Origin: Hyperoplus lanceolatus
Taxonomy: Eukaryota; Chordata; Actinopteri; Uranoscopiformes; Ammodytidae
Reading direction: 5' to 3'
NCBI GenBank assembly: GCA_026929865.2
Contig: CM049397.1
Location: 2,913,501-2,977,500 of the forward strand
DNA length: 64,000 nt
The notes beneath the pieces were generated by a model. It made no database searches. It was not told the DNA's origin and saw only the letters and a program-made list of their open reading frames with translations. The position numbers were made by a program, and so were the translations under genes. Below are positions 36,004 through 61,573 of the stretch, piece after piece (position 1 is the stretch's first letter; every line of letters begins with the position of its first letter).

Positions 36004-36390
36004 GCCACAAGTCAAAAATTGGCAAGTTTCAGTTTGAGTACAAAGGGGCCACAACAAGACATACTGTATATTAGATTTATTGTATAAGATATAATTGACA
36101 AAATGCGCAATGACGATAGAAAACGGATTGTGAGTATTTGTGAATATTCTGAATGTGTCCATACACATCTGCCCATGGAGTCTGCCCATGTCTCCTATTC
36201 ATAAATCTGCCAATGGCCTTGGAATTTCAGTACATACATTCCATGGTCCCCATAAGATGAATACTACAAACTTGATCCACTTACCACACTTCTACTTATG
36301 AATTAAATTTGTGTAAATATAATGCTGTGTAATTTGCAACATATACAGTTAGGCCCCCCTGCACTTCCCACTTGTTATTCAAACTATCCA

Positions 36391-36668
36391 TGCGTTCCAA
36401 ATCACATACTTTTTCTTTTTACTGCACCACATACTAAAGTACAGAAGAGTTTTTGGGCCACAGGAGAGAAAAAAAAATCACATTAGGAAGATTTTTTTTC
36501 ATTATGTCTTGAAATGTCAAGAATAAAGACGAATACTACAAAATGCTTTTGGAGCTAGTGGGGTATCTAGATATTTTCAGCATACTACAATTGACGTGCA
36601 TGTATTGGGACATCCTAAATCTTTTTCTGGCATACTAAATAGTATGGAAGTATGGGGATTGGAACGCA
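36391..36668. mobile_element. MITE with TGCGTTCC ends, related family, copy A
   Basis: TGCGTTCCAAATCACATAC at the left and GATTGGAACGCA at the right form terminal inverted repeats around 278 bp without coding capacity. Its ends resemble those of the MITEs at 7896 and 37563, but the interior differs. Duplicate at 51431-51708. Confidence 0.6.
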
Positions 36669-37562
36669 GGGCATGTCTTGTTTGAGTTAAAACATAATTG
36701 TCACGGTTCTGCCTACTACCCGCCCTTCTTCTGTGTGATCCGCGCCAGGTTTTCCACTCTACCCTTTATCCTGGCTGACTGACAAGTGAGACAGCCAATT
36801 GTCGTTGCCGTCTGCCCCACATCCACTGTCCTCATCAGCCTTGCCTTTAAAGCCACACCAGGATCGACAGTCAGCACTGAATTATTGCATTCATGTTCAT
36901 GTCTGGTTATGCCATGTACTCCTGACCCAAGCCTTGTTTTTGGACTCTGTTCTTTGCCAAGCGCTCTTTGGAGAACTGACTGCCTTCTTGTTGCCAACCT
37001 TTTTCCATCTCCAACTCGTGAGTCTTGCCCAGCCCTTGTTTTCTCTGCCAAGCTGTTAATTCACTTTTGGATCCACAAACATTTCTGGTCTCACCGGCCC
37101 TGATAATAATGGTGCATTTTATCTGACAGCATGTGATTAGTGCCCCACACCTTAACGCTTTCATGAACTGGGTCAACATTGAATCATTTGTCGAGAGGGA
37201 GAAATAAAAACAGACATTAACACGAAAGATGTCAGTATAACTAGGAACATAGGGAGTTCTGAACAGAAAGCCCCTGAATTTGCTTCCTTTTTCTGTGTGA
37301 TTAAGCAGCTATCCACATAGAATGAATTCGTATTGCGGTGGCACCTGGCACTGCCACTTTGGCCCTGGAGGTGTCGGGCCCTTTAATTACTTTTTTTTTT
37401 GCTGCGGGTTTATTCATGTTTTGTGATTAGATCATCCGACCTAGAGCAAAAGGAAGCCACATTTATGGAAATCTTGGGTTGTTTTAATGCTTTGCCTGAG
37501 AGCTGATCGTTTCAGCTGTAACAACCTCAGCCAATGGAGCTACTATGCTACAGACACATTCT
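36669..37562. other. Copy A: repeat-like and unclassified DNA, no gene
   Basis: About 36699-37105 (GTCACGGTTCTGCC to CACCGGCCCTGATAAT) has the look of a dispersed repeat but I cannot class it; its frames differ between copies A and B by one-base indels. About 37290-37560 is unique-looking AT-rich DNA that might be conserved non-coding sequence. Confidence 0.4.
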
Positions 37563-37970
37563 GGTTGCGTTCCGAATCGCATACTTTCTACTATATAGTA
37601 TGTAGAAAAAAGATTTAGGATGTCCCGATTCTTGTGGCCAGATTTAGGATGGTTAGAAGTACCCGGATGTCCTACTTCATGCGGCCAAGATTGTTAGTGT
37701 TGAAAAGTGCATCCTATTTGGGCGATTCTGACCCACAATCCAGTGCGCACGTGAAGTGACGTAACATTGACGAAGCCTCCATATGAAAACAAACGGGGAT
37801 GCGACAGATATAAAAGCGAGAGGCAAGATCAAGGCGCAATGTTATGATGAAATAAGAGAGAAAAGTATGTCCCAATAGTATGCCTACTGCATCCTAACTA
37901 GATTATTTTTATCGTCAGATGTAGTATGTTGAATAGAAAAAAGAAAGATTATGCGATTCGGAACGCAACC
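37563..37970. mobile_element. MITE with TGCGTTC ends, copy 2
   Basis: Ends GGTTGCGTTCCGAATCGCAT and ATGCGATTCGGAACGCAACC form near-perfect inverted repeats around a 408-bp element homologous to 7896-8251. The outer three bases are GGT/ACC here and CCC/GGG in copy 1. No coding capacity. Confidence 0.75.
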
Positions 37971-38317
37971 TTTGTATTCTGTCTTCTCCACTGTGGAGAA
38001 AACACAGCGTTTTTTTTTTTTTTTGTTTTTTTTTCAAAGACCTTTCCCATCAGACACACCTGTCCTCCCAAGTCTGTTCATTTCTACATCCTATTAATTT
38101 TTATTCTTTCTCTTTGACCCTTCTGGCTTTTAAAAACACAGCAGACTAGTCTGTGTCTGTTCTAATGGGATTTTTTTCAAATGATTTATTTGCCTCTGAT
38201 TCTCCTTAGCTCAGGTTTAACTGGTTTCTGGAAAGAAATAAAAAGGCAAGAATCACTGGCATGCTGTCATCACAAACTGTGTGACATTGAGATGAACATT
38301 TAGCAATATACTGAATT

Positions 38318-58113: not shown

Positions 58114-59119
58114 ATATGTTATCAGTATGCTATCAAAATGAATGTGTTAACGCACGGTGATTACTTTCTGGAATTAATGCATACTTTTTTTTACCGCATG
58201 CGTAGAATGACCCGCCCGACATCCCACCCACTCTGCACTAGTCATTGTTCTAGCGTAGCGTTATGGCTGACCCAGGATCTGTTGGGTACTGAGCACAATT
58301 CCAGCGCGCATCGGCACATGTCCGGCTGAAAGGAGCAGCATGTTTTTGTTTTGACCTGCTAGTTGCCGTGTGAGTGTCGTGGGCGGCAGTTGCTGTCGGA
58401 AGCAACAGGAGGAGCAACGTTGACTGCTCTGTTCAGAGCAAGAGAGGACACAAACATCTGCAGTTTTCAGAAGTGTGTGTGATTTAATACAGGACATCAA
58501 CACAACGTCAGCTTTCTGGCACACACACACACAAACACACACACACCTGCGGGCTACAATCAAGTTGTTTGCAGGAATGCAAAACTTGAATCCAGAAATG
58601 ATTTAATTTAATGTCATGCACATTTATGAAAACACACTGATGTATCTACTGATGCTGGTGTAGAACACCAAATAAAGAAATCATAGAAAATGAGAATGTT
58701 CAGGCATATTTCGAATTGCGATTTATCGCTATTTAAATATGATGAATCCACAGCTACCCTGTGATTAATCTGATTAAAAATGTTAATTGTTTGACAGCCT
58801 TAGTTATCAGTCATTCACACCTACGTCCTTTTGGGGGGGAAAAAATCCCTTCTTAAACTGTATATAGTCTGAAGTCTTTTTATAAAGAGATATGGGACTT
58901 TGCTGCCTCCCACACATTACTGTCCATCATATTTTTGCTGTTTTGAAGCAGTATGATTTTTCATATGTTGACTGTTCCCAAGGTGAGTCAGTAGCAAGAT
59001 GTGTCTGCTTCGGTTACACTCAACAGAAGCATGGAGATTTTCTAACGCCCACCGCCAGCCGGCCTGAATGGAAAAAAAACAGAAAGGTGATTACTCATTG
59101 GCATCCAATCCAGAGCAAT

Positions 59120-59217
59120 ACACACACACACACACACACACACACACACACACACACACACACACACACACACACACACACACACACACACACACACACA
59201 CACACACACACACACAC
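59120..59217. repeat. (AC)49 microsatellite, copy B
   Basis: About 98 bases of pure AC at the position where copy A has about 36. Confidence 0.95.
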
Positions 59218-60621
59218 TCGCTGACCTTGGCCAAAGGGCTTGTCAATCAAACAGGGATCACTTCATACACTTTGGTGAACGTTAACTTGAGCTGGCAGGA
59301 CCCCTTTCTGGAGCAGCTGCTTGGCCTCCTCCTGGACACATTTGTCCTTTGGCTTTTGATCTAAAGGTCCACACAGATGTTCCTTCACCCTCACCTCAAC
59401 CCTTTTTTCACTTATTTCCCAACCTAATACAATAATTAGCAGTATACACCCAATACAGATTATTATCATTCAGAATTGATTATATCTATATTTGTAAACA
59501 AAAAAAACATTTTCTATATTTACATAATTGAATTGTTGTAATTGGTTATCACTTTCCTATCTTCTGTATGTTTACACTACAGTACATGTTTCTCTCTGTG
59601 TAATAGGAAAATTCATCTTGTGACTAAACTGACCTGGCAATACACCTGATTATGATTTTAATTGTGTTCGGAGAACGTAATTTTATTATCATTGCAACGA
59701 GATTAAGCTCTTAAATAGATAGTCCAGTAATCCAGTGGTATAACTAAGGTGACGGTTCAAAAGTTCGGAATTTAAATGTGCTTCATCTCTGCAGATTATA
59801 TTATTGTACTGCTAAGTGAATGTGGGACCACTGAGCAGCAGTGCCACAAGCCGACTATCCAAACAACACAGGGCTGACTTCGCTTTACATTAGAAAACGT
59901 GTCATGAGAAGAGATACAAAGCTAAAGAACTTGCTTGATAGAGTCAGTCGACAGAAGTATAAGTACATTTGATGGATCTTGCGTGTGTCTGAGCTGTACA
60001 ATTGATTTGCTATGGCTCTAAATAAGCTCAGTTTCATCAGCTGGTTCATGTGTAAATGTCACATCCCTGCCTTGACTTAAATTTAATCTTTTATAATACC
60101 CCAAAGTCAATCCAGATTTGGATTCCTCAGACGGGCATGCAGAGAGTAAAGTAAAGTGCAAACTACATTAACTGCAAATAGATAAACTCATGCTTCCCAT
60201 ATTATCAGACAGACCTGTGCCTTAGAGCTCATTTTGGGTTATCGACATTCACAGATCTGTGCTGGGGTTATGGAGGAGAAATCCAATGATGCTAAGCCAA
60301 ATCCACCATAGAATTATATTACCACCGGACCGTATGAGGAATTTTGATGTATTCTTTGAGACTGTATGAGAAACTATGCACTGCCAGGGGGATGAGAGGG
60401 CCACACTGGGGTAAGTTTTTGAAGAAGGTGGGCACATTTGTAAACTGAGTAAAATTAATTTGGACTCAAATTTAGGGTCCTGCTTCTTGCCAAGAATAAA
60501 CTGTACTTTTCTGATAGTTGCGTTGATAATTCAGTTGTATAAATAAGTGCCAAACAAATAACTTTACAGTCTGACATGAAACGATACCAATGAGCTCCCC
60601 GTACACCCATAGACATATTAA

Positions 60622-60964
60622 AGCTCCCATATTATACACTTTTCGGTACTATTTTACACCATATTATATGGTCTTAGTGGTCCCTAATTTGTTTTTCTTT
60701 AATTGTTTGCTGAAAAAAACTTTCAGATAATTTATTGTACTGTGCTGATGTTCAGCTAATCTCACAATGGCCTGTTTTTATTTTTTTTAAAACGAGGAGA
60801 ATTCTGACTGGAGTATATTGAGGGGGGGGGGTTCAGAAAGGGGGAGATTGAGCAAAGTAAAGATTGTTATTTTCTAAAATATTTTGGCAGTCTCTAGGCA
60901 CACCGTGGACCCATGGATATGTTAGAACACATTTAAAAAGTGCATTTAGCATAATATGTGACCT
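60622..60964. mobile_element. TTAA-flanked MITE, copy B
   Basis: Duplicate of 45515-45863, flanked by TTAA (60618-60621 and 60965-60968). The G run is about 10 bases, against 18 in copy A. Confidence 0.7.
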
Positions 60965-61573
60965 TTAAGCATTTCTCTGTGGTTGCTTTGTGTATCTCTT
61001 TGTGGTAAGAGGTATTCAGCCAGAATCACTATGGCAAGAGGGAGCACCAATAAGAGTCCTGGGATTTGGTGCCATTCCTCTTCTGGAGCCCCTGTGGACT
61101 ATAGAGGCTTCACTATAGGGTACAGCAGTGTATCATTATAGCTCCTTTCAGAGAGTATTTCCAATAGTTACACTAGCGATAGGTGTGACCCTATAACAAG
61201 CAGTGTGGCTGAAGGCAGAGAAGTGGAGCACTGTTGTGCTAGAGGTTACAGCTTGGGGAGGGGAAACCAGACTCCTGTGTTAAAGCTATGATAAATAGTA
61301 CGTAAGGCGAAGGCAGTGTCTGTGCAATCCAACCAAGATTAATGACCAAGGCACTACATAAAGTGAAATAGTTTATCTCAAGCCTAACAACATGAAACTT
61401 GTAAATGAGCCTGCCGTTAATTCTTTACCGGGAATGCGGACACGCTCATGTTGCATTCAGTTCATCCACTACACATTCAGGAAACGAAAGCTGAAGAACA
61501 TATTCTCCCCTTGGACCATGTTGGCCATTTGTCCAATCTATAGGTGGCTGGGGTGCTATTTTGTGTATTTTAT

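Follow-up and report, generated by a model that had tools for sequence, protein, structure and literature searches.

A probable near-tandem segmental duplication of 10.5 kb of repeat-rich DNA in the genome assembly of Hyperoplus lanceolatus

Introduction

Two stretches of about 10.5 kb that match almost base for base are found in the same orientation within a window of 64,000 bases (the whole stretch of DNA analyzed here; positions 2,913,501 to 2,977,500 of contig CM049397.1, assembly GCA_026929865.2) from Hyperoplus lanceolatus. The question raised by this locus is whether both copies are present in the organism or whether the assembly has placed two haplotypes of a single locus one behind the other. 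Segmental duplications are defined as duplicated stretches of at least 1 kb with at least 90% identity, and false haplotype duplications of comparable similarity can be produced during assembly. In the original prediction, the different flanks of the two copies were taken as an argument for a genuine duplication, and a two-haplotype assembly artefact was named as the alternative. Here we compare the two copies, their ends, flanks and content, and weigh the possible origins of the repeated segment.

Results

Layout and similarity of the two copies

Self-BLAST of the window returned exactly the two predicted intervals, in direct orientation and 4.57 kb apart. Together with a global alignment, it delimits the following segments:

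36004-46473, plus strand: left copy of the repeat (copy A), 10,470 bases (self-BLAST and global alignment)
46474-51043, no strand assigned: spacer between copies A and B, 4,570 bases without N (self-BLAST and blastn with 7-base words)
51044-61573, plus strand: right copy of the repeat (copy B), 10,530 bases (self-BLAST and global alignment)

The two copies align collinearly from end to end, and their ends are sharp. The match is broken in two at an AC microsatellite of unequal length, with the first piece pairing 36004-44111 with 51044-59153 (99.20% over 8,130 columns, gaps counted) and the second pairing 44076-46473 with 59182-61573 (99.17% over 2,400 columns, gaps counted). The pairwise alignment of both intervals that had been proposed as a check was run as a global alignment with strict penalties. 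Its 10,558 columns include 32 substitutions and 27 indels, giving 99.69% identity outside gaps and about 99.2% with gaps. A first alignment with MAFFT gave 40 substitutions and 24 indels, some of the substitutions there being spread-out indels. A 10.5-kb match at more than 99% is far beyond chance. In size and identity (10,558 columns, 99.69% outside gaps) the pair falls within the definition of a segmental duplication, and the copies are not simply those of a single transposable element: a LINE remnant accounts for about 3 kb of the 10.5 kb, and the ends of the unit carry no terminal repeats. The entire window contains no N, and the spacer is continuous sequence.

Flanks and spacer

Searches with blastn and 7-base words bore out the description of the flanking sequence as unlike at all four ends. 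Among the best 12 matches per comparison, the spacer, the left flank (5 kb before copy A) and the right flank (2.4 kb after copy B) have in common only microsatellite matches and short scattered ones, the strongest being an exact 18-base match between the left and the right flank (E 0.0008). No match between the spacer and copy A was found with the low-complexity filter on and E up to 0.001. Two repeats were delineated in the spacer:

48229-50773, minus strand: Tc1-type DNA transposon, TA-flanked and split by a nested insertion (self-BLAST, termini and a weak DDE_3 match)
50860-51042, plus strand: repeat preceding copy B, about 86% identical to 15421-15599 (blastn, 7-base words)

The Tc1-type element is 93.4% identical to a copy at 1884-3518, with matching termini (self-BLAST and blastn); its DDE_3 match in the six-frame Pfam search is weak (E 0.00091, below the cut-off). 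The insertion nested in it (approximately 48298-49205, about 900 bases) has short inverted ends and a near 8-base target duplication, and on reading by eye appears hAT-like. The element at 1884-3518 is itself TA-flanked and contains an open frame of 342 amino acids with matches to DDE_3 and a Tc3-type HTH, and a further Tc1/Tc3-type transposase fragment (HTH_Tnp_Tc3_2 and weak DDE_3) is located on the minus strand at 4240-4905. The match of the second spacer repeat to 15421-15599 ends one base short of the start of copy B. Beyond the end of copy A, at distances of about 150 and 340 bases, there are long AC and TG microsatellites of opposite sense (46625-46682 and 46811-46875), which together could form a hairpin and stall replication.

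Content of the segment

The recognizable content of the two copies is as follows:

38318-41324, minus strand: disrupted retrotransposon of LINE (non-LTR) type within copy A (Pfam RVT_1, Exo_endo_phos and Exo_endo_phos_2)
53389-56342, minus strand: counterpart of this LINE remnant within copy B (open reading frame list and alignment)
44076-44111, plus strand: AC microsatellite of copy A, 18 units (Tandem Repeats Finder)
59120-59217: AC microsatellite of copy B, 49 units (Tandem Repeats Finder)

In copy A, the endonuclease and reverse transcriptase domains of the LINE are split over several reading frames, and one reverse transcriptase piece matched 10 solved sequences, including LINE-1 ORF2 protein and R2-type retroelements. 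The frames of the copy B remnant are interrupted differently, owing to small differences between the copies. At the AC microsatellite, copy B exceeds copy A by 64 bases. A six-frame Pfam search of 36004-46001 (stops as X, E up to 0.01) detected no domain in copy A beyond those of the LINE, and no host gene was recognized there, although a negative Pfam result may still miss short exons.

The six-frame searches covered 36004-46001, 46200-51047, 31000-36001, 61500-64000 and 6000-31001, with 1-5999, 46002-46199 and 51048-61499 lying outside. The scans of the flanks (31000-36001, 61500-64000 and 6000-31001) were empty except for a sub-threshold DDE_3 match (E 0.0049) in a single frame of 16002-21001. 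When ten chosen open reading frames, two of them from 1-5999, were compared with Pfam, six had matches, three to Tc1-type and three to LINE domains. Across the window, the GC content is 42.75%, 44 open reading frames encode at least 100 amino acids (the longest at most 342), and Tandem Repeats Finder reports six dinucleotide microsatellites; neither tRNA or tmRNA genes nor Rfam families at gathering scores were detected. Taken with the Tc1-type transposons and the LINE, these features point to eukaryotic DNA, probably from a vertebrate and perhaps from a fish. A search for relatives of the LINE in viral_contigs gave three stretches that fit the pattern, none of which was confirmed.

Several smaller repeats are also present in the segment. 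A near-palindromic foldback element of about 139 bases, probably a MITE, occurs at 42269-42407 and 57298-57436, its arms being 84% alike over 133 bases (self-BLAST). Conversion between the palindrome arms was considered as the source of the paired differences at 42384/42388 and discarded, given that the arms compared by eye did not fit. Third copies of two shorter repeats inside copies A and B are found at 7907-8220 (about 92%) and 29523-29969 (about 90%).

Ends of the unit

Comparison of the 60 bases at either end of each copy gave a score of 9 for inverted and 6 for direct terminal repeats, whereas 95% of random pairs score up to 10. The best words resembling a target-site duplication are 3 bases long for copy A and 4 bases long, with a two-base slip, for copy B. 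Accordingly, the ends display neither the terminal repeats nor the target-site duplication expected of a 10.5-kb transposon. Microhomology at the junctions amounts to 1 and 0 bases if copy B is new and to 0 and 0 bases if copy A is new. The lack of terminal repeats, of a convincing target-site duplication and of long microhomology makes transposition of the unit unlikely, and the structure of the ends is easier to reconcile with repair than with transposition. Beyond their right ends the copies share a 10-base word, which follows after 23 bases in the case of copy A and after 9 bases in the case of copy B. Random pairs of stretches from the window share a word of such length with a probability between approximately 0.0003 (3,000 samples) and 0.0017 (200,000 samples), for a word that was noticed post hoc; as a trace of template switching it is at most a hint.

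Distribution of the differences between the copies

The substitutions are strongly skewed along the segment, in contrast to the indels: the left and right halves contain 6 and 26 substitutions, respectively (p = 0.0005), vs 14 and 13 indels. Position 40108 separates a left part with 2 substitutions and 12 indels from a right part with 30 and 15 (Fisher p = 0.0007, for a boundary picked post hoc); thus, the left 4.1 kb holds 2 of the 32 substitutions. An even scatter of substitutions is rejected at p = 0.001, and the longest substitution-free run spans 2,302 bases (p = 0.012). Among the 19 single-base indels, 15 are in homopolymers of at least 3 bases and 12 in homopolymers of at least 4 bases, a placement that suggests consensus errors. 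Many of the small indels may be evenly spread consensus errors, with the true differences located mostly in the right 6.3 kb. The difference in microsatellite length, together with indels of 4-8 bases, shows that at least some of the differences between the copies are real.

The substitutions comprise 12 transitions and 20 transversions. This ratio lies below an expectation of 2:1 (p = 0.001) but not significantly below that of the repeat pairs of the window, at 90:82 (p = 0.11). The latter counts were pooled over five of seven repeat pairs; two were left out as redundant, since they make the comparison again with copy B. A low ratio of transitions to transversions was thus set aside as proof of sequencing error and is suggestive only. 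At substitution rates that we take to apply to fish, 0.31% substitutions would correspond to roughly some hundred thousand years.

Discussion

A probable genuine duplication by template switching

The likeliest reading, to which we assign a probability of about 0.58, is a genuine, recent, near-tandem segmental duplication of about 10.5 kb of repeat-rich DNA that contains no recognized host gene and was made by template switching. We infer that both copies are present in the organism and that copy B is the new one. Template switching in replication or break repair would be the simplest route for copying 10.5 kb in direct orientation to a site 4.57 kb away: copying would jump back once, where the spacer ends, to the start of copy A and jump forward once, where copy A ends, to the right flank. 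The spacer repeat that stops at the start of copy B (50860-51042) would mark the derived junction, and a false join would look alike. The absence of N from the window, the continuous spacer and the size of the copies favor a real duplication.

The strong skew of the substitutions is evidence against this reading, as a simple duplication should diverge evenly. A true duplication thus needs gene conversion or read mixing, but no additional heterozygous insertion. One specific version, in which gene conversion preserves identity over the left 4 kb, the right 6 kb diverges and the 10-base word is a replication-repair scar at the right end, appears rather improbable. The gap-counted identity of 99.2% also counts against a genuine duplication since it falls within the range of false duplications, as do the homopolymer setting of most single-base indels and the low ratio of transitions to transversions.

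A possible false haplotype duplication

The alternative of a false haplotype duplication was rightly raised in the original prediction and, although we consider it less probable than a genuine duplication, it is a serious contender. Here the true locus would be single-copy. One haplotype would consist of the left flank, copy A, the spacer and the right flank, and the other of the left flank, copy B and the right flank, so that the spacer would be a heterozygous insertion or deletion. In the assembly, a second-haplotype contig that starts at the left end of copy B would have been attached to the spacer, making 51043/51044 the only false junction. This single join accounts for flanks that differ at each end of both copies. 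The inference from different flanks to a genuine duplication is weakened to that extent, given that one false join and a heterozygous spacer yield the same flanks; its conclusion is still the likeliest one.

The divergence between the copies is allele-sized, with 0.31% substitutions, 18 vs 49 microsatellite units and several indels of 4-8 bases; divergence of that order is typical of ordinary allelic differences. Furthermore, the 4.1 kb adjoining the suspected join is nearly free of substitutions, which are dense beyond it, with the indels even throughout. The near-absence of substitutions next to 51043/51044 fits a join that starts in homozygous sequence. Skewed substitutions with even indels are what a boundary between homozygous and heterozygous sequence in a noisy assembly might look like, and they fit gene conversion (about as well) or read mixing, too. 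In the portion of their study cited here, Ko and co-workers tie false duplications to homozygous/heterozygous boundaries and to sequencing errors (PMC9516828).

Conversely, a false duplication requires a 4.57-kb heterozygous insertion in addition to the false join, and no assembly gap lies between the copies, where there is no N; a wrongly filled gap is possible. According to the part of the survey by Kelley and Salzberg (PMC2864568) that is cited here, false duplications are mostly shorter and in the median less alike than the present pair: most are below 2,000 bp, with some up to 28 kb, and the median identity is 98.1%, few exceeding 99.5%. The same part of the survey indicates that mis-assembly is seldom the cause when both copies of a duplication lie in one contig (PMC2864568). 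As far as the cited passages on false heterotype and homotype duplications in draft assemblies go (PMC2864568, PMC9516828), the present pair resembles them in its low, allele-like and uneven divergence and in its homopolymer indels; it differs in having no N gap, in its 4.57 kb of continuous spacer and in being longer than most of those reported.

Unlikely origins: mobile element or tandem duplication with the spacer

That the 10.5-kb unit is a mobile element inserted twice is highly unlikely. The sharp ends, the unlike flanks and the internal reverse transcriptase and endonuclease domains would suit such an element, and the middle of the unit does encode both domains as LINE (non-LTR) retrotransposons do. 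Unlike in these, however, the domains occupy only about 3 kb of the unit and are broken over several frames on the minus strand, the copies continue past the LINE remnant for about 2.3 kb on one side and 5 kb on the other, and the LINE does not set the ends of the unit. The terminal repeats do not rise above those of random pairs, the words resembling a target site are at most 4 bases long, and the entire unit does not occur a third time within the 64-kb window; on these grounds we reject a 10.5-kb mobile element.

Tandem duplication through unequal exchange is common, and the order A-spacer-A suits a unit made up of copy A and the spacer, but this origin would require a second, precise deletion of the duplicated spacer, of which no trace was found in the 2.4 kb to the right of copy B, and we regard it as the least likely of all.

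Significance

The comparison holds a caution, namely that unlike flanks alone do not rule out a false duplication, and a simple warning sign that can be read from sequence alone, namely skewed substitutions accompanied by even indels. Duplication of DNA without a recognized host gene has little importance beyond cataloguing, and no function beyond the carriage of a dead retrotransposon is indicated. The locus shares with near-tandem intrachromosomal segmental duplications of vertebrates a repeat in direct orientation that exceeds 1 kb, identity above 90%, a distance within 1 Mb and mixed DNA that includes repeats; there is no difference in kind, the present case being seen in assembled sequence only. 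In vertebrates, nearby duplications are favored over distant ones, as stated in the cited portion of one study (PMC13431229), and recent tandem duplicates are described as common in zebrafish in the cited portion of another (PMC3464592). If real, the segment described here is an ordinary example of nearby duplication.
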